Shown: in pieces, positions 25,633-42,111 of the stretch
Layout: each line of letters starts with the position of its first letter
How positions within the stretch are numbered: position 1 is the first letter of the stretch
From: Physcia stellaris
Lineage: Eukaryota > Ascomycota > Lecanoromycetes > Caliciales > Physciaceae
Length of the DNA stretch: 64,000 nt
Assembly (NCBI GenBank): GCA_018902385.1
Contig: JABSSW010000026.1
Location: 496,001-560,000 of the forward strand
Reading direction: 5' to 3'
The notes under the pieces: generated by a model
Told to the model about the DNA's origin: nothing
Seen by the model: the letters and a program-made list of their open reading frames with translations, nothing else
Databases searched by the model: none
Translations under genes and position numbers: made by a program

Positions 25633-26178
25633 CCCGGGGCTGGTAGTTCGACGAATTTTTGCTTTGGACAAGAGAAATGGGACTTGGGGTAAATAAAGGA
25701 ATAGAGAGGAGGGGTAGGAACGTAAGGTCCAGTGGATCGAAGGGCTGTTTTTATCTTTAAGTCGGATTTACTTCACCTCTGACCCTCTCATGTTATCTCT
25801 CGGGGTTGTACGGCTGATGATATCATGATATGGGAAGAAGACTTAACACTCAACTCCATATCACTGAAGACTTGTTTGTGTTCGACAACGCTCCAGTATT
25901 ACTCTATGCGCTTGATAAGTAGATCTGTAAGTACTCCTGTCTAGCAGGATGGTATTAGCAACATGCTCATGATGCCCATCCAGATTCCAGAGTTCGGCTC
26001 CTTCGGGCAAACTTCATATCAACTCGGTGGCCTTAGGTGTTAGCTTAGAGTAAGGGAAAACACCACTGTTACTAGCGGGGCCTACATAGAAGCAACTCGA
26101 GCAAGTGATGAAGGTATCACATTATTATGATCGGGTTGCGTGGAAATGCAGTGCTGGTGAAGAGACGAAGCGCCTAAA
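25633..26178. other. Spacer between F-box fragment and LTR island
   Basis: Normal GC content, no gene. The last five bases, CTAAA at 26174-26178, are repeated at 42107-42111 and form the target-site duplication of the outer LTR element. Confidence 0.6.
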
Positions 26179-26401
26179 AGAAAATGGGGTTCCTAGCGAT
26201 ACGCAGGGGCTGTAGAATAGGTCACTAATAAGGGGTCTAATATGGATCTGATCAAGTGATTCTGAAAATGCTTGTTATGATCTATCTGCAAATGTGCTAC
26301 GAGCGAATTTCTAATAAATCTATTGTCAAGCAATTAAGATGCGTCACGTGACGTTTCGCTTATTGATCAATTATCAATTTTTTGATTCGTTTTTTTTAAC
26401 A
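26179..26401 (-). repeat. Gypsy 3' LTR (left copy)
   Basis: 223 bp, the same length as the copy at 41884-42106. On the minus strand it starts TGTT and ends near TTTTCT. The outer half (towards the flank) keeps ordinary GC content, while the inner half is AT-shifted. Confidence 0.85.
26342..26353. promoter_or_regulatory. 12-bp palindrome in LTR, left copy
   Basis: CGTCACGTGACG, a perfect palindrome with a CACGTG core of the bHLH/bZIP type, is identical in both LTR copies despite heavy mutation around it. Its cytosines are all in CpA or CpG context, which the mutation process here spares, so survival need not mean selection. Confidence 0.45.
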
Positions 26402-27188
26402 GTTTTCTCGCATAACAAAATGCTGTTTTCAACATCATTTTCGAATCGTTTTTAAAAACATGCAACTAACAAATTCATATTTTTAGTAATTTTGACATCA
26501 AATCGTGAATCAAATGAATTGAATTTTGATTGAACAAACAGAAAATTTATTAATGAGTGAATGAAAAAGTTCTGAAAACAAAAAAATAAAAATTGAATAT
26601 TGTCAATTGATTTTCACATGCATATGTTTGATTCGCAAATTCGAAATGTCGAAATCGTATTTTGTTTCGAAATTTTCGAATTCGAACGTTTTTAAATTTT
26701 GCAAAATATCGATGACGTAATTTTGATTTGTATGAAATTTTGATCGATTTCGTTAATGATGACTAATCGAATTCGAATTGTATTGAATTCACTGCTCGAA
26801 CGATTTGTTGACTTGTTGTTTTTTATTTATTTTTCGCATAATTTTTTTTTTTGATACGTCGGAAATTTCGAAGCATCGAAAAATCTTGTTCGTTGAATGA
26901 TCGTAAATATTTTTCGCGTACAAAGAAAAATCGTAAATGATCGTCATGAAATTGATTTGATGTTTTATTGTTGTTCATTTTCAAAAATTTGTAATTGAAA
27001 TTGTGTTCGTTCGTTTTGTTTGCGATTACGAATGATTTTCGTCAACGAAAAATATTTTTGACGAATATTGAATTGATATTCAATAGAAAAACGTATTGAT
27101 CAAAAATAAACATTTTGACGTTGATTTTTTTATCGTAACGAATTTTTATACGTTGTTTTGATTTTCGCGTGCGTTAAATTACGTTTTG

Positions 27189-27369
27189 TGTTACGAGCAT
27201 GTTTTGAAAGAAATTTCGATTGAATTTTATTTTATCATTCATAAAAAGTTAACGCGATTTAGAATTTGACGTTCACAATTTACTTTTGACATTCGATTTT
27301 CTGTACATATTTGTTTCTTAAATCAAATATTCTCGTTATGTTATTTGTTTTCTAAACATGCGTTTTACA
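27189..27369. repeat. LTR of the non-autonomous element, left
   Basis: 181 bp, TG...CA ends, matches 28948-29128 without indels. Confidence 0.75.
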
Positions 27370-27594
27370 TTATATTTGATTTTCATCGTGACGAACGATG
27401 TAAATTTCACATTCGCTATCAAACGATCAACGAGTAAAAAGAAACAAAATCGATCAATTCGTGACGATCGCACATTTTCAGCACGAAATCTTTTTATCAA
27501 TCGCAATGACGATAAGTCATTGTTTTTAACACGCGATTTCTCGCTTTGAATTCTGCGAAACTAATTGACATTCGATCAAATTTTGCTTTGTGAA

Positions 27595-27760
27595 TTGCTC
27601 GTCGAAATACGCGAGTAATTAAATAAAATCGTCAAATATGCTCGTAGAAATACGCGAGTAATTAAAGAAAATCGTCAATTGCTCGTAAAAAAAACGAATA
27701 AAAACAAAATTTTCATTACTCGTAAAAATACGCGAGTCAAAAGAAAATCGTCAATTTGAA
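27595..27760. repeat. Tandem repeat of about 40-45 bp units, about four copies
   Basis: Units contain CTCGTAGAAATACGCGAGT followed by AATCGTCAA. The CTCGT...ACGAG part of each unit is itself a small inverted repeat. It lies inside the non-autonomous LTR element. Confidence 0.6.
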
Positions 27761-27761
27761 A

Positions 27762-27940
27762 TTTTCTTTTTGAAAACGATAATTGCATTTCATTTTCATT
27801 ATGCGCATCGTGAATCAGCGAAAATGATCGTGAATTTGCGTTAATGAAGAAATTTTTTTCTTTGAAAACGATGATTGCATTTTATTTTCATTTGACGCAT
27901 CGTGAATTTGCGAAAATGATCGTGAATCAACGATAATGAC
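27762..27940. repeat. Direct repeat of about 85-90 bp, two copies
   Basis: Both copies begin TTTGAAAACGAT and contain CGCATCGTGAAT and CGAAAATGATCGTGAAT, at about 27762-27846 and 27853-27940. They follow the 40-bp tandem array inside the same element. Confidence 0.6.
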
Positions 27941-28947
27941 AATCAATCGTCGATTTTTTTGTTCGTCGAAATCAATCGACATTCAGTCAATTGTGTCGAT
28001 TTTTTGTTCGAGTTTTCGATATTTAATTAATAATCGATTTTTTCTTTTTGCTCGTCGACATCGAATGATTTTTACAATAATCATTTTTTTGAAACGTTGA
28101 AACATCGTTTGATAAAATAAAAATAAAAATCACATACACACATCAAATCATCTATTTCTAACAAACAAATCAACATTCAAAACATCAAACAAAAAAATTT
28201 GAATTTCGTTTCGTTTCGTTCTGTTTCAGCGATTTGCTCGTTTCGATGACATTTAATGAGTTCGTTACAACGACTAATGATTTTGCTTCAATGACATTTT
28301 ACGAACGAATTCGCATCGATTTCAATGAATTTGTTATAACGATTTCAAAAACGTATGCGTTCGATTTTATACATTTTCGCAATCAACATCAATGAAGATG
28401 AATTTTTACATACAAACGATACGAAAACAAATGACATGAATAGATAAAAAACACGAATCAATGAATTTGTTATTCAATCAAATTTGTCGTTTTTTTCGCA
28501 AATTTTTGTCAATCGTCGATACGTCAACATTTTGTTTCAAAATTTGCAGTCAATCAGAACGCGTCGATTAATAAAAATTCGAAAAATTCAAATTCGAAAA
28601 GTTTGAAACAACACACGTTCGCGAAATCGATATCGTTTTGTTGTTTCTGTTTCTATTCTGTTCGAGAAATCGATCGTTTCATCATATTAATTTGCAAATA
28701 TTTTCGCGATCAAAATTTTCAACAAGATTTTCATTTCGATTGTTTTGACATATATTTTGTTTTCGTTTTTCTTTTTTTGTTTCGAATTTATTTCTTCACG
28801 TTTATCGTATTTGTTTTGACATTTTCAACGTCAATTATGATTAGACAAATATTTGAATTACAGTCAATGAATTTCTTTGCAATGTCGATCGATAGAAAAA
28901 ATGAATATTCGTTTCGAAACGAAATTTGAAAAAAGAAAAAAAAATAG

Positions 28948-29128
28948 TGTTACGAGCATGTCTTGAAAAAAGTTTCGATTGAGTTTTATTTTATCATTCA
29001 CAAGAAACTAACGCGATTTGAGATTTGACGTTCACAATTTATTTTTGACATTCGATTTTCTGTACATATTTGCTTTTTAAATCAAATATTCTCGTTATGT
29101 TATTTGTTTTCTAGACATGCGTTTTACA
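28948..29128. repeat. LTR of the non-autonomous element, right
   Basis: 181 bp, TG...CA ends, matches 27189-27369 without indels. Confidence 0.75.
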
Positions 29129-29246
29129 TCTTGACGTATTTGTTTTCGTTTAATCATGTGATTTCATACATACGATAACATTTTCTCGACAATAAAAAGA
29201 ATTATCTTATCAAATAACATCGTTGTTTTGATTGATCGTACAATTG

Positions 29247-31375
29247 TCAATCACGAAACTCGATATCATGTAATATTTGATTCGAAATGTAATTCAAATG
29301 TTTCACATAACGTTCGTTGCATGTCGATGCAATTTTTTTCAACGTATCGATAACATTTTCATTTGAAAATGTCATTTTGTTCATCGTCGTTCGAAATGTT
29401 TTATTATTTCGTTTTATCATTTTCAATGATTTGTGCAATTGATTGAAAACGATAATACAAATGATATTTAATTCGTCAAACATTTTTTGCATTTCGTTCG
29501 ATTTGAATGCGATATTTGCGTTTCAATATATTGCGACGAACAAAAAATAATCATTGAATTTATAATATTCGAATGATTGTTTCACATTTGAAATTTTCGT
29601 ATTTATCGTTGAATATGAAAATAAATCGTTCGAAAAGTAATTTATCATGTTGCAAATATTTTTGAATTCATGTTTCGAAAACGTGAGCAAATTCATGAAA
29701 TCAATATCGAAAAAATCGTAAAATTGATAAATTTGAATAAATGACAAAAATACGTGACGATTAGCGATGATTCATTGTGCGCAAAATAAACATTTTTGAA
29801 TATATGATTTGATATTCGAAATCATAAAAAATAAAAATCTGATTTTTGATTGAATTGAATATGATATTTGACGAGAAATGATCGATTTCGTTATGTGATT
29901 TTTGCAACAAAAATGCGATTTTCTTTTTCGCAATGCAAATATTTCATTTATCGTTGTTGTGATACAATAATCGTTCGAAAATTTCGTTTTATCGATATTT
30001 ATTTATTTTACGTTTGAATGCGATTATTGCGATTTTGTTCGCATTTGTTGAAATTTTTTGCTTTGCGTAATAATCGTAAATATCTGAATATCATTTTTTT
30101 TAATGTAATTTGATCGAACATCGATTATTTCGTTCAATTGAAATGTTCGTACAATTGTTTGAAAACGAGAACAATTATCATGATTTGATTCGATGAAACA
30201 AATTTCAAAATTTTGTTTTTTCACATAAAAAACGTTCATTCGACTTTGATTATGATTTTTTCATCGTATTTTTCGATTTTTCGTTTTTCGTTTTCGTTCG
30301 ATAATTGTTTCAAAATATCACGATATTTTTCTTTGTCAATTTTTCAAAATCATTGAATATCGTTTTTGTGATTTTTGATTTTTTTATACAAATTTTTGAT
30401 TAGTTGATTCGATTCGCAATCTTTATCGTTGAAAATTACACGTGAGAAATCGTCGATCATTTGATTTTTTTTATTCTCGATATATTTGATTTGAATATTG
30501 TGATTTCGAAATTTGTTTGTTCAACGAACATATATATTTTCGTGTTTTTGAGCGTTGATGAAACTCATCAAAAATTTGTGATTCGTGTATATCGTATTGC
30601 GTTTCAAAAAATCAACAATATGTTCGTGTTTTTTGATGAAATGAACAATGATATACAATTTTCGTTTGTATGTATCGTAATTGCGTTGCGTGACGTTGAA
30701 TACAATGCAATCATAAAAAATAAATCGCATTTTATTTTTTTGCAATTGACGAATGTAATTATTTTCATTATATGTCAACGCATCGATGTATGTTTCGCAA
30801 AACAACGAAAATCATAATCGAACATGTTCATTACGTTAAAACACAATTGTTTCAATATTTGAAACGACAAATTTTTTGATTTTGATCATTTTTATTCGAT
30901 TTTATTATCGCACAAACGTTGAAATGATTTTTGAAATTCATCGAAATTCAATATTCAACGTCTCGTAAATTGTATTGTTTCGAGAAAACTTCGTATTGCA
31001 ATAACGTTTTGAAAAATTGATCAATTGCGTATTTTATCAATTGATTTCTGTTTAACGTTCAATATTTCATCGATTCGATGTATTTGATCGAATGTTTTGA
31101 ATTTTGTGATTTCGATTTTCAGTTTGAAAAGTGAAATTTTCATTAATAATCACAATAATCTAAAAAAAGAAGTAATATTCTAAAAAATGATATTGTTTTT
31201 CGAAGATTTTATGATCATCGAAGATATCGTCGATATAGAAAAATATATTTGACGACGTCGTATTCACTATCGCATGTAATAATGACGATTTTGAATATAA
31301 TTTCGATATGAATTTCAATACGATATTGATTAATTCGATAAATGTAAACGAAAACGTTTTGATATTTTGTGACAT
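29247..31375 (-). pseudogene. Gypsy pol remnants: RT, RNase H, integrase
   Basis: Minus-strand segments are recognisable by family pattern. At 31160-31375 is a reverse transcriptase piece with FFYIDDIF (YIDD box). At 30521-30805 is RNase H (RNYDTYKRKLYIIVHFIKK, then TIYTNHKFLMSFI). At 29523-29747 is the integrase core (FDIDFMN, MINYFSNDLFSYST). At 29247-29492 is the later part of integrase (NERYVKHLNYISNQILHDIE). The order RT-RNase H-integrase identifies Ty3/Gypsy. Heavily broken fossil sequence. Confidence 0.8.
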
Positions 31376-32011
31376 ACGAATTGATTATAATTGATCGATT
31401 TCAAATACGTGAAAAATCAAATAATGACGATTTTCGAAATGAATTGTTACATTTCAATAATTATGTTTTATATTTGTCGTAAAAAACATTCGATAATTTG
31501 ATTGATTTAACAAATCGTGTGTACGTTGTGTTAATTTCATCATGTTTTCGACGAATTTCTTATACACGAAATGATAATTGAACGTGAATTTCGATTTTGT
31601 TTGATTCGCTTTTGATATTAATATAAATGCAATTTTTCATTGTGAAATACGATCATTTGCGATGACTGTACGTTCGTACATATCGATTTCGATATTTTTT
31701 TGAATGATAATTTGATATCATCATTTTTTATTTGAAATAAATCGATGTTGTTTCGCATTGTAAAATTTCAAATCAAAACGAAAAATGACTCGATGTACGA
31801 TGAAATCAATGATCGATATTTTTTTCAATTTTTTTGTTTTTACATCACGATACGTTCATATGAATTGTAAAATTTTAAAACGAAATGCAACATTTGAAAT
31901 TGCAAATCTCAATGTGATTTTTTCGTTTTTGATTCATTTTTTCAACAATTCGTTGAATTGATTGATATTCAATTTTCGTCGAATTATTCGTCGAATTGTA
32001 AAAAATGTTTT

Positions 32012-32207
32012 TATTGAACGAATGTGAATGACTGTCATTGCATTGCATGCAATATTATCGAAATTACGTACAAAAATAAATACAATTTGATTGCGCAAAT
32101 ATTTCTAGTAATGATCGATTTTGACACGTCTCGTTTAATCGATCAATCAAAAATTCTGATTCTATTCGTGCTCATATTTCAATTTTCTGTCATCGTACTT
32201 TTCAACA
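32012..32207 (-). repeat. Copia 3' LTR
   Basis: 196 bp, matches 37681-37876 without indels. The edge may be two or three bases off because flanking AT bases match by chance. Confidence 0.8.
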
Positions 32208-32313
32208 TTTTCACTCGATGACAATCATGTTCATTGCACTCGTGAATGCGATTTTCATTGAGCTTCAATTTTTGCATTGATTGTGATTTTCATTGAGTGC
32301 TAATTCGTGCAAC

Positions 32314-32722
32314 GACGTAATTTTCACTGAATTTCAATTTCTACGTTCATTGATGAAAAAAACACTGAATTTCTCTGATCAGAAAATTGATTTCAAAAAA
32401 GTCATTCTGAATCATCATGCAATTCGAATTTGAACACGATCAACGAATTTTTGTTTTCAATTATAGTTTGTCAAATTCGTACAATCGAATCATCATCGTT
32501 TCAAAATGAAAAAAATGACGTAACTTTCACTAAATTCGAACTTTCTTAATATTGACGAAAAAAACACTGACTTTTTTGATCAGAAAATTAAATTCGAACG
32601 ATTTCAAAAAAATCATTTTGAATCATCATGCAACTCGAATTCGAGACGATCAACGAATTCTCGTTTTCGATCATGATTCGTCAAATGTGTACGATTGAAT
32701 CATCAGCACGTCAACATGAAAA
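32314..32722. repeat. Tandem duplication of about 203 bp near the Copia 3' end
   Basis: Two units start GACGTAA(T/C)TTTCACT at 32314 and 32517 and share AAAAAAACACTGA, TGATCAGAAAATT, GAATCATCATGCAA and GATCAACGAATT in the same order. The duplication lies between the RNase H remnant and the 3' LTR. Confidence 0.65.
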
Positions 32723-32746
32723 AGCAATTCTGATTATTGAAAAAAT

Positions 32747-35700
32747 TTAATTGATTTTCGATTTTTTCAGTCTCAATTGTTTCACGAATTTCTTGAACTT
32801 ATTTTTTGACAATGACTTAATCAGATCATCGATTATCATGTTTGCACTTGAAACGTAATTCAATTGAATCAAATTTTTCTGATGCAAATTTCTGATATTG
32901 TGATAAATCACATCAATGTGTTTTGATCGTTCATGAATATGTGCGTCTTTGATCAACAGATTAACGATTTGATTATTTCTCAAAATTGTATTGATGAGCA
33001 AATTTCATGCTTATCGTTCTGAATGATTGTTATTTGATTCAATTCGATTTCAAGATATTTGATGAAATTCAAATCACGAAAAACTGTGTTATTCATAGTT
33101 TTTCTTTAGCGCATGTCGATAAAATCATATACTCGATTTCAATGATTGAAATAATAATCGATTTCTGTTTACGACTCATTCACGATATTGATTTCTCAGC
33201 GAACATGTAAACGTATTCGAAAATCGACTTTCTGTTTAATTTATCGATTGCGTAATCAAAATCCGAATAAATTTTGACTCTGAAATTTTCATTGTTGTTC
33301 AATTTCAAATCGTATACAAGATTTAAATCGATGATCGATCGAATATAACGAAGCAAAATTTTCATTGCTCTATCGTGATGTTTCGCAAAATCATTGAAAT
33401 ATTGATTTAATCGCTCTAATGCGAAGACGATATTTGAACGAGTGTGTATGACAACATACATGAGTTTTTCAATTTTGTGTTGATAGTTTTTGAATCAATT
33501 CGCTCGTCGTTCGATTCAGCTGATCTGAGTGAATCGTAATCGTTCATGAATAGTTTCGTACGTTCGTGTTTATCGATATTCATATGCAATTTATTCAATA
33601 TCTCGCTCAAATAATGAATTTGATTCAATCGAATAATTCGTCTTTTACGATCGCGAATGATTTTAATGTCAAGAATTTTTTTCATTTCTTTCAGATTCTT
33701 GATTTTGAATATCTTTTTGAATTCATTTTTGAATCAGTTGACTTGCTTTTTGAATTTGACGACAACAAAAATGTCGTTCACGTAAAGAAACAATATGATT
33801 TTTCGTTTTTTATGACGAAACATGCAAAAGTCAATCGAAATCTGTTCGAAATTCAATTTATGCAATTCTTTTACGCAACGTTCGTGTCAATTTCTAATCG
33901 TTTGTTTCAATTCATAAAAATTTCGACGAATCAAAAATGTTTGTTCGAAAGATAAATTCACGTCGAGTGACGATTTCATGTAAATTATCTTTTTTAGAAA
34001 TGATTTCGTGAAAACATTGTTGACGTTCATTTGATGACATTCGAGATTTTTCAACGCGACGATGACAAAAAACAAACGAAAAATATCGAATTTGACAATT
34101 GAAACAAAAATATCTGTATAATCTATTTCATATATTTGCGAAAAGTCTTTTGTAACGAATTTGATTTTCAATTTATTCAACGTATCATTCACATGCATTT
34201 TGACTTTGAACATTCATTTACTAGTGACGATATTGACGTTTTTCGATGAAATGACGACGTTTCAAATTTCATTAACTATTAACGTCGTCAATTCGATTTG
34301 AATAGTCTCGAGTCAAAGTTTATCTCAAATAAAATCATTGACAATTTTCTGATAGTTCTCGAGCACAAATATGACTAGCTTTTCAACGAATTGTCGTTCT
34401 ATTTTTTTTGTTGTTGCAAATAGAGTTCATTCATCGTGCTCGCACGTATCAAAATTCTCGATTAGAAAAATCATCATGACGCGTGCAATCTTGCTGCGAT
34501 GTTCATTTCGTTTTTTCTCGTTCGTGATATTTCGTTTACGTTTAGAAATTGTCACGTGAAGAAATTGCTGCATCATGCGTGAAAATTTCGTGAGAAATGC
34601 TAATTTAGCACGCGTTTGAATTGTCGATTTCGTCGTAAATTCGTTGATTTCATTTTTTTCATTTGATGTATCGATAAATTTATCGTTTTTCTTCATGTGC
34701 ATTGACTGAATTTTTTTTTGTTTTTCGAAATCATAGACGCAATAAAGATCAAAGATTTCGCAAAAATTGATGCAACAAAAACGAATGCAAACGTCGATGT
34801 CATCGAAACGACTGCAAATGCAAAAACTACTTTGCGTGATTTTTCGACAAATCGTTTTTCAAATAATTCGTTCATTGTAATCGTGAACAAATTCAATGAT
34901 TCACTTTTTCATTTTTCGTTTTCAAAGAACATTATTTTGTGATGTTTAATGACATCGCGACGATCAAAAATTCATATTTTGTATTGAATGATGATGTTTT
35001 CGTCATAATTCATGAACACATCTGATTTTTTTGTATTGACGAATTTATTTTTTCTATTTTTTTCAAACAATGATTTGATATCAACGAGCGAATAACATTT
35101 GCATTTTCAAACGCGTATGTGATTTATCGACGATTTAATATCTGTTCAAATTTCAATAAAATTTGTTGAATTGTCGTCGATTATTGATTTCGTGTTCATA
35201 CGATTGCGAACATATACATTTGTTTTTTCTGCTTCAAATCAAAATTCTATAAACAGTTTTGCATCTTGAGTCATTGCTCGAATTTGATTTTCGAACGTTT
35301 TTATGACACGCTCTATTACATCGTTCTGAATGAAATTATACGAAACGATGTACTGTGAAACAATGTCGATAAATTCGCATCAAAAATCGAGTATGAATTT
35401 AATTTTTTGACGTTGTCACAACGTATTGTCTGTAGTTTTCGTTGAGTTTCTAGTTTCATTTTCAATTTTCATTTGTTGAGAATTTCAAAAGCATCGACTC
35501 GTTTGCGAAAAATAAAATTCACGTTCGTCGAGAGTGATTATTCACGATTTCTAAAAAGTATTCGTAATCGAGTCTTGAAGCAAATAAAAATTCGCAAATA
35601 TCAATAAACATCAATTTCAATATATGAATTTTGCGTTCGACTAGACGACGATTATGTGCATTAATTATTTTCGTAATCGCACATATTTTACATGAATCGT

Positions 35701-37066
35701 TGCGATTCTCGACGATGAAAATCGATTTGCGTAAAGTTGTGATCTTGTGCAAATCTCGAAATTTTGCAGATTTCATATGATCAAAACGTCGATGTCATAA
35801 TTCGTATAAATCACGTCTTTTTTGATCAACATTTGAATCAATATTTGAATCAACATTTGAATCAATATTTGAGTCAACATTCGATGATTGAAAATCGATT
35901 TCGATATCATTTCGAGAATCAGTATCTGCATCGAACAAAATTTCGTTCGAGTTCACGATTGTTGACATTGCAATGAAACAAACAAAATTTTAAAAATTCA
36001 ATTGCAAACATCGTGTTGCTCGCTAACAATGCGTATTTTTTAAATTTTGATGTGATTTTGTTTATTATGTAAACATTTTTTTGAGCGAATGCTCGAAATA
36101 TTTCAACGTTTTGTTTATTGCGCATGAACAAATTATCGTCATTGAAATTTTTTATCAAATTTTTTTTGATAAAGTGTTTGTCGAATAAAAAATTGACGTC
36201 GAAATCAAATACATAAAACATTTTCGTTAACGTGTTTTCATCATTTTTGACGCGTATCGTCATTGAATCACATTGATTTGAATACAATTTTTTTTTTTCG
36301 ATTTTGATCGTGCGTCTTTTAATCGATTTGAAAAATTCATTAAAAAGTCGAAAATCGTCAATCATGTGTGACGAAACGTCGATATTTGCAATTCATACGA
36401 ATTTGAAAAGTTTATTGATCAATTCTTTTGACAGAACGACGATTTTTTTCATATCGTTTTCATTGTTTGAATCGATGTCGATGTCGAAGCTGAAATTGCT
36501 GTTAGACGAAAAAAGTCTGCGACGTTGTACGCTTTATGTTTTTTGTTTTTTTTTTTATTTTTGATTGTGAGCAATTTCTTGATTTGTTGTTTCTTTGTTC
36601 ATTTTTTTAGTGTTTTCAAAAAATTGCATTCGACGATTCTGTGTGAATCGTCACAAAAAAAACAATTTTTAATTTTTTTCGTCATGATTTTGAAACGACG
36701 ACGAAAACTTTCATCAAAATTAAAAAATCGTCGTTGAAATATGCGATACGATTGACGACGATTGTTTTTGATCATCAACGTCGATTCGACGATCTTGTTC
36801 GCAATGAATTGTGTTTTTTTTTTTTGCAATTTTTGAATAAATTTATCGACATCGAAATTGTTTTGTGCGTCGATTGCATCACGAATGACATCGTATTCGA
36901 CAAACAAAAATGCTAAAAATGTTTGAAAACGACGTTTTGATTTGAACAAATTCATCATGTTTGATTGCATGTTTGCAACTTTGCGATTTTTTTTGATGAT
37001 ATCGATATAGACGATTTCAATGATCACGTCTGAAAATTTTTTGTAATTCATGAATTTTTGCAACAA
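32747..37066 (-). pseudogene. Copia gag-pol remnants
   Basis: Recognisable minus-strand segments: gag with a zinc knuckle CFFCDDSHRIVEC (36599-37066), protease to gag-pre-integrase (35919-36365, KKLYSNQCDSMTIRV then MRNKQNVEIFRA), the integrase start (35519-35776, CKICAITK then FIDICEFL), reverse transcriptase (33887-34213, KFVTKDFSQIYEIDYTDIF) and RNase H (33180-33461 and 32747-33001). Family and order are clear; the sequence is a fossil with very many breaks. Confidence 0.85.
35817..35890. repeat. 15-bp minisatellite in the Copia element
   Basis: About four to five copies of a unit like TTTGAATCAACAT/TTTGAATCAATAT in tandem, between the integrase and protease parts. On the minus strand one frame reads a repeated Asn-Val/Ile-Asp-Ser unit. 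Confidence 0.6.
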
Positions 37067-37680
37067 CTGTCGTTCAATTGTAACAAATTTTTGTTTGTAT
37101 TTGTTGACAAAAATTTTTCAAATTTTTCTGACAATTTTCAATTTCGTCATCAATTTTTGATCATCGTCATCGATACATTCGATGAGTTGATATTGTGCTT
37201 TTGCGTCGAATTTTTTTTCAATATTTTTATCATCAAAATTCAAATCGACATTTCATTTTGATTTTCGAATGTCATTCGACAACAATTTCGACACATAATT
37301 TGAATCGACGATCATTCAAATTTTTTCGTCGATAAATCATTGTTTCATTAACTTGAATCATTTCTCGCAATTTTGACGAGTGAGAATATCGCAAACTCGA
37401 CGCGCGTTGAATTTGTTGAATTCGAAATCGTTCATGATGCGTGATATGATATGTAAATGTGTAAATTTTTTTTATTTGTTGTATTGCGTGAAGCATTTTC
37501 ACAGTCGTTCGTTCATTCGTTGAATTGATGATCGAATTCGAATATGTAAAACATTTTTACAACTTTGACGCGATCGAATCGATTTAAACATTTTCACTGC
37601 TGTTTGATTCTCGTGATTTCGTGATCGAGCGATTGACGTTGACAATCACAAAAACTTATGTTAATTCGAATCTCATAATC

Positions 37681-37876
37681 TATTGAACGAATGTGAATGA
37701 CTGTCATTGCATTGCATGCAATATTATCGAAATTACGTACAAAAGTAAATACAATTTGATTGCGCAAATGTTTTTAATAATGATCGATTTTGACACGTTT
37801 CGTTTAATCGATCAATCAGAAGTTCTGATTCTATTCGTGCTCATATTTCAATCTTTTGTCATCGTACTTTTCAACA
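37681..37876 (-). repeat. Copia 5' LTR
   Basis: 196 bp, minus-strand start TGTTGAAAAGTACGATGACA. Followed on the plus strand by GTTTT, the proposed target duplication. Confidence 0.8.
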
Positions 37877-38720
37877 GTTTTGAAATTTGCAAATTTCATA
37901 AAAATAAAATTGACGTTGTTGATTCGTGAAATAAATATTTTTTGTTTTTTGTTTTTTTGTTCGTTTCAATGAAATATACATGCATTATCGATTGAACATT
38001 TGCAATCATATTCGATTTTTGTATTTTCAATTTGTTTGAAAATTTGACGATAAAAAAATGAATTTTTTTGATAATTTCAATGCAAAAAACAAACGTATTC
38101 GATATCACAACGACATTGCGAATTATTTTCGAAATTTTGAACGATGTTGAAAACGACATTAAATATTCGAATGTTGTTTTTTGATTGATCATTTCATCGA
38201 AATGAAAAATCACATGATTCGATATTTGCATTGATGTAATCGACGCATAAATCAACGAATTGATATAACGTTTTTTTGAAAATGTTGTAATGTTTTTTTT
38301 GAATTTCACACGTGAATTTTTTTTAAAATCGTCAACAAAATTTATTGAAAATTCTCATAATCATTTGATTCGATAATTTCATTTTTCGTATTTGATTTCG
38401 ATGCATCGTATTCATTCGAATTTAATTTCTCGTCGATATTCATATTCATAACACGTTGCATCGTTGATTTGAATTTCTTGATCGTGTTTTTGAAAATTTT
38501 CTTTTTGATCGTTTTGTAATGTTGCTTTTTTGCATGATTCGAAAAATTTTTCATGTGTTGTTCAATTAATTTCGAAACATTGATCAACTTTGTTGTTTTG
38601 TTCGTAATTTTGTCATCAATGATGATTTTTTTTTTGTATATTTATCATGATTGAAATCGAATGCAATCATGAAAATTTTAACAACAATTGAATTTTATTA
38701 TGATTCGAATTGACGAAAAT

Positions 38721-40728
38721 TCAAATTTTTCGAATGATTTTCTCGACGTGAACGTGAAAAATGACGAAATAATGAAATTTGTGATAATTATCATTGATCA
38801 CGATCATTCGAATATTTCGAGAATCGATTTTGATGACAAAATACATTTTTAAATCTAAATCATTCATCAATTTTTGATTGATTATGATCAAATTCGATTT
38901 TTGATTTGTTTTGATCATATCGAATGATATTTCAATGATTAAAAAGTTTTTTTTGTCAAATTTGTTGCAATTAATGAACACGTAAAAAACATTGAATGAT
39001 TTATTGATTGTTCGCAAATATTTTTTAATAATTCATTTGTTGTTTTTATTTTCATCGATTTCGACGAAATTCGTGTTGACGATTTGAATATTTGCGATTT
39101 AAATGATTTTTGCTTTTTTCGTGCGTGATTTTCGAAAAACGATAATAAAACGTTTTGATTCGTCACGAAAATAAAATGAAAATTGATACAAATGCATGAC
39201 AAATAAAATAATTATGTTGTTCATGAAAATGTTTTTTACATTGATTTTTGATTTTTTTTTCATTTTCGAAATCGATTTCATCATTTTTTTGATTTTTTTT
39301 TTTTTTTTTTTTTTTGAATCGATCGACGAAAAAATCGACAATACGTTTTTGTTGAATGTTTTCATCAATATTTGAATTGTTGTTGTTTTTTTTTGACGTT
39401 TTCGTGTTTTCATAACGTTGAATAACACGATCGAATCATCGAATTTTTCGTGAAATAAAATGACGAAATTAATCTTGTTAATTTCGCGAAATGTGATAAT
39501 TTTTTTTTCAAAATCATCGAAATCAAACATTGCAAATAAACGTTTTGAATCAAACATTTCAAAAACATATTTCAATGAATTGCAATTAGAATCGTGTTTC
39601 GTTTTACATTGTTTGAGTTGAAACATACGATCAATATGTTTTAATAAAACAATAAATGTTGATGCAAATGTTGCAATTTCAAAATGAAAATCACGATTAT
39701 AAATCTCGTTGTAATACGTGATTTGATTTATTGCAAATTTCGAAAATTATTAAATCGCGTTTTCGTTGTTGATTGATAATCATGTTCGATGTTTTGTTGT
39801 TTTTGAAACAATCGAATTGTACGATGTTTGAAATTGTTGTTGTGAAATATGAAGTTTTCTAAATTGCAAATATGACGAGTTACGAAATGTTGAAAAATTA
39901 TAATTTGTTGTTTTTCAAATAAAACGTCGTTTTGCATAAATTATTTGTTGATGAATCGAGCAATCGCATTGATTTTCATGATAATCAAATAAATCGCATT
40001 TGAAACATCAATGATCGTGTTTCGAATAATTGTATATTTGAATTTCATTGAACAATGAATTCGAATGTTGATATTTACGTGTTTCGAAATTTCGATTTTT
40101 TTGCGCACGTTGCTCGTCGATTCATTTTTTCGATTGATATGTATTCGAAATTGAAACAAAATGTGTGAATTGATTATGTTTTTGTTCGAATCGAAAATTT
40201 TGTGAAAAATTTTTTTGTTGATGTCGAATCAACGAATTTGTTACAAAATCATTGATTATATTTTGAATGCGATCATTATTTCGAATACGTTTGAAATTCG
40301 TAAAACGATTATTCGAAAAAATAAATTCGATAACATATTTCAATATGATCATTTGCGATTGTAAAATTTGAATCGATGTATTCGAATTGTAATTTTCGAT
40401 TTTGATGATCATGAATTTTTTATCGAAAAATGTTAATTTCTCGTTGCGTTTCTTTTCAATCTTTTTAATTTGATATTTTTTTTGACGTTTTTGAATTCGA
40501 AAATTTTTTTTGTCGACGTGCAAATTTTATAGAAATTACGAATTTCAATGTTTTCGTTATGTTTGACGTAAATTTTTGTTTGCAATTTCTCGTCACGTAT
40601 GTTTTTGATGTAATACGCGATAATATTTTTGAAAAAAATTTCAGAATATTCAACGATTCGACGATCGAAAGATTTTTGTCGTCGAATTTTTTGAACAATT
40701 CGATCGTGCGTTTATAATAATTTCTCAA
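38721..40728 (-). pseudogene. Gypsy gag and protease remnants
   Basis: At 40465-40728 a gag-like stretch (YYKRTIELFKKFDDKNLSIV) is seen, and at 38721-39017 a retropepsin-like stretch (FLIIEISFDMIKTNQKSNLI, then NDLDLKM) resembling the protease region of fungal Gypsy polyproteins. The basic, coiled region at 39099-39626 lies between them. Fossil, heavily broken; the gag call is weaker than the protease call. Confidence 0.5.
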
Positions 40729-41883
40729 CGTTTCGTTTTTTTTTTGTCAATCGATTGAAATTTCAAATTATAATCGTGTTCGCGTTTTGTTTTCGTTGTG
40801 TTTTTTTTATTTTTGTCGAAATATTCGTAATCAATAAAACGAATAAATTCGATTTTATCGATCTCGATGAAATTTTTTTGACGACGATATTTTTGACATC
40901 GTTATTCGTATTTATTCATTTTTTGCATCGTTTTCGAACAATGTTCAAATTGTTTCGATTCATTTTTTGTTCGAGAAATTTTCAAAAACTCGTTTTTGAG
41001 TTTCGTAATTCAACGTTTTTCATTTTTTTCTCGTCAAAAATGATATATTTGAATTTGATCGACATGATTGTTATATTGTTTTTGACGAATTTTGAAAACG
41101 TAAATTGCGAAAAAGTAAAAATAAAATTTGAATTATTGATAAATATGATATGAAAATCGTTAAATTTGATTGTGAATTGATTTGAATTTTGTTTTTCGTT
41201 TTCGTTTGAATGATAAAATATATCGTATGTCTTCGATCACAAATCACACTTGATACAATGAAATCGTTGATTGATATCGACTTCGTACGATTTTCGATGA
41301 TCGCAATCCGGACAATGAGCGTGTAAACACAGAGACAAATTGACTGAAAATCAGATAATATCTGATGCAAATATCGAAGTGCTAAATGATCTGAAAAATA
41401 TGAAATGCTGAAATTCTGATTTCGAATGCCTGATAATGTTTAACATTTCAATCGAATGATTTTGCGTTTTTGTTGTTTTATAATTTTAATTTTATTTGAT
41501 GTCTAATATGCGCTTGATTTTTGATTTCTATAATAATTGATTTACACTGTTTGATAGTGTAATATTGAATTTTCTCGATAATTTTGATTTGAATTGAGTG
41601 TTGAATTTTAAACTCGTTATGTTCGTTTCGATATTTTTTTCGAATAACAGTTTGAATGTTTTAGTACGTTGTTTGAAACAACGCATTTTTATGATTTTGT
41701 ATAATGTTGTAATTCGATATTTCTATTCGCTATGTGTTTTGAATGTTTGATATTGATTTTTGATACTCAATGAAAAATGATTGTTGTATTGTAATATGAT
41801 CGATTTTGCTGTTTCGATTGAAAAACTAAAAAAACGTTCAACGAAAATTTCTTTTAACAGTTTTTTTTCTCAGAATGATCATC

Positions 41884-42106
41884 AGAAAATGAAATTTCTA
41901 GCAATACGTAAAAATTGTAAAATAAATCACTAATAAAAAATTTAATATGAATCTGATCAAATGATTTTGAAAATGCTTGTTATGATTTATTTGCAAATGT
42001 GTTACGAGCGAATTTCTAGTAGATTTATTGTCAAGCAATTAAGATGCGTCACGTGACGTCTCGCTTATTGATCAATTATCAGTTTCTTGATTCGTTCTTC
42101 CTAACA
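41884..42106 (-). repeat. Gypsy 5' LTR (right copy)
   Basis: 223 bp, matching 26179-26401 without indels. Its minus-strand start is TGTTAGGAAG. The outer part near 42106 keeps GC, while the inner part is AT-shifted. It is followed by the CTAAA target duplication at 42107-42111. Confidence 0.85.
42047..42058. promoter_or_regulatory. 12-bp palindrome in LTR, right copy
   Basis: The same CGTCACGTGACG as at 26342-26353. Its position in the LTR is compatible with a promoter or enhancer site of the element; binding is inference. Confidence 0.45.
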
Positions 42107-42111
42107 CTAAA

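Follow-up and report, generated by a model that had tools for sequence, protein, structure and literature searches.

Repeats of the lichen-forming fungus Physcia stellaris are hypermutated at cytosines before pyrimidines, probably by a RIP-like genome defence

A stretch of 64,000 nucleotides of the Physcia stellaris genome (contig JABSSW010000026.1, positions 496,001 to 560,000; hereafter the window) contained a long terminal repeat (LTR) retrotransposon, at 26179..42106, in which cytosine followed by a pyrimidine (CpY, that is, CpC or CpT) was strongly depleted, and the same loss was found in repeats elsewhere in the assembly. The results were best explained by a genome defence similar to repeat-induced point mutation (RIP) that hypermutates the repeats of this fungus at CpY (probability about 0.83). 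The process behaves as RIP does; that it is RIP in the strict sense, premeiotic and RID-dependent, is not claimed. RIP itself, mostly at CpA, was already known, and the new element is an ascomycete RIP-like target of C before a pyrimidine. The first-pass annotation of the window had proposed that either a second mutator or a RIP-like process with an altered target context is at work, and this joint claim was supported by all checks that ran. The family of the fungus, Physciaceae, belongs to the class Lecanoromycetes.

The genome paper (PMC7513301) describes Physcia stellaris as a lichen-forming member of Physciaceae, Caliciales, and reports a culture grown from ascospores and a hybrid Nanopore and Illumina assembly of 46.57 Mb in 184 scaffolds (N50 594.86 kb, GC 43.32%); the term "repeat-induced" is absent from its main text. 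The assembly searched in this study was smaller, with 43.97 Mb in 147 contigs.

Composition gives no direction of change, and a relative without hypermutation was therefore sought. Locus L013, a Gypsy-type copy of ordinary composition whose frames are split, served as the reference, and locus L030 is a mutated copy that has otherwise hardly diverged from it. Over 3.47 kb, 440 of the 442 CC sites and 452 of the 463 CT sites of L013 were changed in L030, against 26 of 443 CA sites and none of 410 CG sites. These 892 CpY changes were accompanied by 1 transversion, 1 reverse transition, and 13 gap bases. The CC trinucleotides were changed at CCA 130/130, CCC 62/64, CCG 101/101, and CCT 147/147 sites, and the CT trinucleotides at CTA 84/85, CTC 117/117, CTG 100/105, and CTT 151/156 sites, with CGN at 0/410. 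Both strands were affected alike (CpT sites changed, 191/196 on the plus strand and 261/267 on the minus strand). CpA was therefore not the preferred target; its preference is a characteristic of most described RIP and lies outside the definition of RIP.

The order CC > CT > CA > CG was found in all 11 copies that could be aligned to L013, out of 13 tried (L032 and L029 gave no alignment). In the ten further copies, changes reached 95-99.7% of CC, 75-98% of CT, 3.5-14.5% of CA, and 1.7-7.3% of CG sites; as each of these copies carried 7-22 transversions, ordinary divergence accounts for some of the CA and CG changes in them. Changes mainly from CpA to TpA in repeat copies, which the first-pass annotation had named as the result that would count against it, were thus not what the alignments contained. 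When 185 pairwise alignments of mixed families were pooled, the counts (CT 14918, CA 7490, CC 5889, CG 5593, and 11494 transversions) showed a far weaker CpY bias. The reason is that, once copies are saturated, most of the differences between them come from ordinary divergence and residual CpT, and counts are informative only for L013 and its close relatives.

The base at -1 had little effect on change in the copies of L013, and in six pooled copies the changed fraction of CpT stayed within 0.76-0.87 whichever base stood at -5 to -1 or at +2 to +5. The first C of CCC was changed less (0.914) than that of CCA, CCG, and CCT (0.98-0.99) in pooled copies, likely because its neighbour had turned to T first and left the weaker CpT target, which would mean that sites were hit singly. 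CpT sites spared in common by several copies were 1.5-2.8 times above expectation, from common descent or weak context, and strand patches were weak, the clearest being in L026 (CpT 126/189 plus, 217/264 minus). The rare CpA changes in L030 preferred CAY (21/185) over CAR (5/258; Fisher P = 4e-5), and nine pooled copies gave 179/1610 for CAY and 86/2243 for CAR, as if a pyrimidine at +2 were occasionally read.

The island in the window is an LTR retrotransposon carrying nested repeats, with CTAAA duplicated on both sides. Its features are as follows.

26179..42106, no strand assigned: hypermutated island, LTR retrotransposon with nested repeats, GC 0.279, CC/GG nearly nil
26174..26178, plus strand: left target-site duplication of the outer element, 5 bp, CTAAA, read from the sequence
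42107..42111, plus strand: right target-site duplication of the outer element, 5 bp, CTAAA, read from the sequence
26179..26401, plus strand: left LTR of the outer element, 223 bp; compared with the right LTR, it retains CpY sites over the outer ~120 bp and is mutated farther in
41884..42106, plus strand: right LTR of the outer element, 223 bp; compared with the left LTR, it retains CpY sites over the outer ~90 bp and is mutated farther in
26402..41883, no strand assigned: interior of the outer element, 15.5 kb, with CC 3 and GG 2
27188..27370, plus strand: nested repeat pair, first copy, 183 bp; 15 transitions between the copies (13 CpT, 2 CpA)
28947..29129, plus strand: nested repeat pair, second copy, 183 bp, direct repeat
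32012..32211, plus strand: LTR-like repeat of a nested element, first copy, 200 bp (196-200); 9 transitions (8 CpT, 1 CpA)
37681..37880, plus strand: LTR-like repeat of a nested element, second copy, 200 bp (196-200), direct repeat
36599..37066, minus strand: Gag-like open frame, 155 amino acids, without Pro, Gly, or Trp, a composition that CpY depletion requires; assigned by eye from a Cys/His cluster and composition

Between the three LTR pairs, 58 differences had been counted by eye, and a recount in which the context was read from whichever copy still has the C gave exactly the same 58 transitions (CpT 40, CpC 13, CpA 4, CpG 1), with 53 of them at CpT or CpC as stated. Of the repeat lengths first given, 223 bp was retained, and 196 bp and 181 bp became 200 and 183 bp by the tool. 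The claim that all differences are transitions held within the lengths first given; the 200-bp version of the second pair adds one T/G transversion, which falls within its final 4 bp and so outside the 196 bp. Counting both strands, one or both LTR copies have a C at 209 positions, of which 73 are CpY, and 53 of the 58 changes fell at CpY (hypergeometric P = 6e-27).

The sample lines 38761-38820 and 40021-40080 contained 16 CA/TG and no CT, AG, CC, or GG, as first described. The dinucleotide table for 26402-41883 confirmed that CpA, TpG, and CpG remain plentiful and that CC/GG is nearly gone: CC and GG had an observed/expected ratio (o/e) of 0.01, CT 267 and AG 183 (0.32/0.25), CA 863 and TG 1178 (1.33/1.29), CG 899 (3.03), and TA 831 (0.42). 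Both flanks were ordinary, with each dinucleotide at o/e 0.75-1.17 and a GC of 0.481 on either side against 0.279 in the island. The usual RIP indices were predicted to score the island as un-RIPed, and they did so: RIPper takes TpA/ApT > 1.1 and (CpA+TpG)/(ApC+GpT) < 0.75 as RIP (PMC6714961), and the island gave 0.404 and 1.465, with a composite of -1.06 (flanks, -0.57 and -0.53). The CpC index, (CpC+GpG)/(TpC+GpA), which was defined earlier in RIPCAL (PMC2621366), was 0.0075 in the island and 0.78-0.82 in the flanks.

Reverse transcriptase loci were sampled through 150 RVT_1 matches scored among 527 candidates, and the 30 best-scoring loci were examined for composition. CC/GG had an o/e of 0-0.11 in 22 of them, was partially depleted in 2 (0.21 and 0.43), and was normal in 6; CpA/TpG stood at 1.04-1.43 in the 24 affected loci. 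At L038, CpT and CpC were both at 0.00 over 3.5 kb. Stop codons within the 150 matches were TGA (250), TAA (33), and TAG (3), with at least one TGA in 138 matches and no stop in 10. The excess of TGA results from TGG turning to TGA via GpG to GpA; a CpA-type RIP would yield TAA and TAG from CAA and CAG. The integrase domain PF00665 gave 6 matches from 14 candidates, 5 of them without stops, a low number that is probably due to hypermutated copies falling below detection.

The CpY bias that the first-pass annotation had asked for across unrelated repeats was present in Gypsy-type retroelements, DDE_1 DNA transposons, and a relic of ribosomal DNA (rDNA). Nine of the 10 DDE_1 matches (two of which are neighbouring pieces on C14) carried stops (44 TGA, 3 TAA), and CC/GG in the matched cores was 0.00 in 7 of 10, partial in two, and ordinary in one. 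The sole 5.8S rRNA match (39 of 2,644 candidates scored) was a relic without CC/GG, flanked by altered large- and small-subunit sequence. This relic of an rDNA unit is L045 (G000:C41:44399-47552), and the assembly searched may lack the functional rDNA array.

A composition-blind sample was taken as 12 stretches of 5 kb (60 kb; 120 windows of 500 bp), picked by contig number and round coordinates. Hypermutated windows (31 of 120) were clustered in 4 of the 12 stretches, so that "about a quarter of the genome" is a rough estimate. The CpA signature by the RIPper thresholds was found in 0 of the 120 sample windows and in 0 of 267 AT-rich windows, the latter drawn from all stretches retrieved and the 64-kb window with overlaps included; the CpC index was below 0.15 in 263 of the 267. 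Canonical CpA RIP as scored by RIPper was accordingly absent from both sets of windows, and no repeat family with CpA depleted and TpA enriched was found among the stretches examined. The published GC of 43.32% (PMC7513301) would fit a mix of ordinary stretches at 48-52% and mutated stretches at 20-31%. Searches of viral and bacterial/archaeal contig collections for related loci found none. The partly mutated L049, L053 (C25), and L018 (C30) had intermediate CpC depletion and might reveal in which order changes occurred and where strand patches lie. The most extreme stretch was L067 (G000:C90:20001-25000), with a GC of 0.197, below the 0.243 of L030, and a CpC index of 0.000, perhaps from another starting composition or another bias.

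The behaviour of the changes was that of RIP in several respects. Both strands of repeats carried C:G to T:A transitions, and the changes were confined to repeats, as judged from the window flanks and the known repeat loci rather than from each stretch of the 60-kb sample. The changes also came as a rapid burst, without intermediate copies: a search with L013 found itself and at least 23 other stretches at 63-75% identity, and none between 75% and 100%. Of the changes that separate the two outer LTRs, 25 of 25 before position 120 were in the right copy and 8 of 9 after it were in the left copy, in each case the copy in which that part faces inwards; at both ends of the element, the ~100 bp bordering unique DNA escaped change, which a requirement for homology on both sides would predict. 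An apparently solo LTR in ordinary DNA, L005 (~207 bp), was unmutated; the minimum repeat length for RIP is over 400 bp in the account of the RIPCAL paper (PMC2621366).

Some observations weigh against this explanation. The spared edge was merely ~50 bp in L002 and L004, the length threshold is based on the single locus L005, and some small effects come from the bases at -1 and farther away. Two Gypsy copies, L014 (G000:C5:1165021-1168497) and L015 (G000:C12:58812-62288), are 95% identical over 3.47 kb and are not hypermutated, with open frames of 1024 and 901 amino acids; they differ at 41 CC, 37 CT, 22 CG, and 31 CA sites and by 40 transversional changes, which is ordinary divergence, and repeats can therefore escape. 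Likewise, the un-hypermutated L013 coexists with mutated near-identical copies, and simple pairwise RIP would not leave both in one nucleus; since the culture was started from ascospores (PMC7513301), the survivors may come from several nuclei, or elements may have transposed after the most recent cross. The protein of L014 and L015 resembles, by eye, the frames of the mutated loci L029 and L032.

Slow decay, in which CpY-specific 5-methylcytosine (for example, from DIM-2-type heterochromatin methylation) is deaminated spontaneously with no mutator burst, would be in keeping with the DIM-2 gene of this genome and with the variation of CpT saturation between copies (75-98%), as if exposure had differed. 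It is unlikely, since 892 CpY changes against one transversion between L013 and L030, with CpG at 0/410, are far beyond ordinary deamination and exclude slow decay as the main cause, and since copies of the L013 family are either un-hypermutated or 63-75% identical and composition shifts within 100-200 bp at element edges. An APOBEC/AID-like single-strand cytidine deaminase that edits element cDNA or exposed strands was considered very unlikely. A sharp dinucleotide context, such as the one observed, is typical of these enzymes, and their context lies mainly 5' of the C; here the +1 base decides and the -1 base has little effect. Both strands were affected about equally, and DNA transposons and rDNA were affected although they have no cDNA stage. 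The genome has 11 PF00383 deaminase-domain matches, which are not individually identified and decide nothing.

Canonical CpA RIP followed by a later CpY wave, or CpA-saturated RIP that leaves CpT polymorphism alone visible, had a slighter chance still. In fungi with CpA RIP, changes rich in CpT or even dominated by it have been reported from alignments (PMC4352252, PMC7882544, PMC2621366); one such analysis describes CpT to TpT as the dominant change in fungi capable of RIP (PMC7882544). CpT polymorphism can remain after CpA is exhausted, so that composition is decisive, and CpA and TpG were undepleted both in the island and in the 24 affected RVT_1 loci; in addition, none of the 267 AT-rich windows passed the RIPper thresholds and few CA sites per copy were changed relative to L013. 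The least probable explanation was a sequencing or assembly artefact from modified cytosines mis-called in Nanopore reads, which the published assembly did use (PMC7513301). That assembly is a hybrid with Illumina reads (PMC7513301), the change is near-complete over kilobases on both strands, and 53 of 64 homologous frames from other database sources, apparently other data, also lack Pro and Gly, although the query is biased likewise.

For a RIP-like process, the most likely mechanism would begin with repeats being recognised by homology. A methyltransferase-like enzyme of the RID/Masc1 family that accepts a pyrimidine in its readout of the +1 base would then initiate deamination, and the burst of C to T on both strands (per copy, CpC 95-99.7%, CpT 75-98%, CpA 3.5-14.5%, and CpG 0-7.3% of sites) would take place in the sexual cycle. 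The search for RID and DIM-2 methyltransferases proposed in the first-pass annotation was productive: PF00145 gave three genes, namely DIM-2 and two of the RID family. As the catalyst, RIDB (C6) would rank first, conventional RID (C5) second, and DIM-2 (C3) third.

The DIM-2 gene on C3 encodes about 1,200 amino acids, with a tentative exon join. Its best solved relatives were the DIM2 entries 9bap/9baq (E 4e-188), followed by DNMT1 (E 2e-34); the match spans residues 329-1014 of a 1108-amino-acid frame and covers regulatory and catalytic parts, which places the protein in DIM-2. Conventional RID on C5 (934 amino acids, motifs PPCQ and LEQT) matched G7Y79_00005g016670 at 100%. RIDB is a short RID paralogue (C6:790906 to about 792561, 508 amino acids, motifs PPCQ and MEET) that belongs to RID/Masc1 (DNMT1 class I) by its C5-methyltransferase domain, catalytic PC motif, fold, and grouping with RID/DmtA.

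A tree of 64 rows (62 of 120 listed relatives, from 2,567 found, and two Physcia stellaris proteins) placed RIDB in a 34-row clade (support 100/100) inside a 47-row group with Eurotiomycete DmtA proteins (99/96). The named members of the clade among the rows used were Physcia stellaris and Heterodermia aff. obscurata (72% identity), both Physciaceae; Heterodermia also has a conventional RID (P0196). After the catalytic PPC, the clade has S-P-A-Q in 28 of 34 rows and S-P-M/L-Q in 6, and Q was found at that loop position in 0 of 30 other rows, which mostly have A-H-T or A-K-T. The acidic D-D/E and N of most other rows are replaced by F/Y-E-D-K-Q in most rows of the clade. Nine rows of the clade cover the stretch that follows the PTH motif, and all nine have it short, as does Geoglossum. 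The changed segments are the catalytic loop and the beginning of the target-recognition region, both of which contact DNA in related enzymes. A structure model of the Heterodermia protein of the clade has the full DNMT fold; structure comparison confirmed this fold and did not reveal the residue that reads the +1 base. Beside the catalytic cysteine, the RID relatives P0045, P0062, and P0066 (Teloschistales) have PPCK, PSCQ, and PCCQ, and seven members of the RIDB clade (P0019, P0021, P0027, P0028, P0029, P0031, and P0034) have PPCP.

The loop and segment changes of the clade, together with the odd context, suggest RIDB as the enzyme that sets the CpY target, a proposal made tentatively and at somewhat under even odds. 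With similar reserve, the RIDB clade may have evolved strict CpY specificity through its rewritten loop and short target-recognition segment, and may run a distinct pathway that is shared with other lichens, has converted about a quarter of the genome, and has been missed by CpA surveys.

Traces of hypermutated frames were also found in protein databases. The mutated frame L024 had 64 homologues at E <= 1e-10, mostly from ENA, which formed 32 clusters at 80% identity. Pro and Gly were both absent from 53 of 64, and their total was at most 2 in 62 of 64; His (2.3%) and Gln (1.7%) were kept. Pro (CCN) and Gly (GGN) cannot survive CpY saturation, and His and Gln (CAN) would not survive CpA saturation. 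As far as protein sequence goes, these homologues suggest a process common to other fungi or other strains. Their use as proof of the process in other species was dropped, because the records are without organism and the query's own lack of Pro and Gly favours such matches.

A RIP-like process that nearly excludes CpA and CpG contrasts with the CpA preference that RIP-like defences share according to a 2025 survey of 1,239 fungal genomes (PMC12543289). The usual indices call such DNA un-RIPed, and RIP may consequently be under-reported in lichens and elsewhere; the existing CpC index of RIPCAL (PMC2621366) detects the process at once. With two RID paralogues that have different loops and an unusual context, the part of the protein that sets the target base of RID and a possible mutator role of RID itself become testable, and the signature of hypermutated frames (no Pro, no Gly; His and Gln kept) permits searches in protein databases.

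Among the matches listed from the open-access PMC literature (CC0, CC BY, and CC BY-SA), which leaves most subscription journals and non-PMC preprints outside its scope, targeting of CpC and CpT with CpA spared was not described. The RIP-like context is already known to vary among fungi, with CpG-type hypermutation in Microbotryum (TpCpG), Tuber, and Rhizoctonia solani (PMC2621366, PMC4352252, PMC4014442). In R. solani AG8, single-nucleotide polymorphisms (SNPs) are denser at CpC than in any other CpN class (one in 214 bp genome-wide and one in 301 bp in repeats), and the authors argue for a CpG bias from SNPs that are not confined to repeats (PMC4014442), whereas CpG in Physcia stellaris was changed at 0/410 sites between L013 and L030. 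Transposons of Botrytis cinerea, Sclerotinia, and Magnaporthe oryzae show CpT changes associated with RID/Masc1-family genes, and CpT even predominates in M. oryzae and B. cinerea T4 (Amselem 2015, PMC4352252). In that account CpT stands beside CpA and CpC is unlisted; in Physcia stellaris, CpC is the top target and CpA is spared. Ascobolus MIP (methylation induced premeiotically; Masc1) also directs a RID-family enzyme to repeats and methylates them without mutating (PMC4352252, PMC7862722), whereas in Physcia stellaris the sequence itself is changed. The RIP of Cladonia rangiformis, another Lecanoromycete, is similar in its sharp AT-rich repeat islands and its RID and DIM-2, and differs in an AT-rich peak at ~16% GC (PMC12542154); the words CpA, CpC, and dinucleotide are absent from the main text of that paper. 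The closest likeness is to Neurospora crassa RIP (RID-dependent and DIM-2 pathways; PMC11969663, PMC12543289), with both-strand C:G to T:A bursts confined to repeats, AT-rich islands, and homologues of RID and DIM-2 in Physcia stellaris. Neurospora prefers CpA, whereas the order in Physcia stellaris is CpC > CpT >> CpA > CpG, and its affected stretches stay at ~20-32% GC because CpA and CpG survive.

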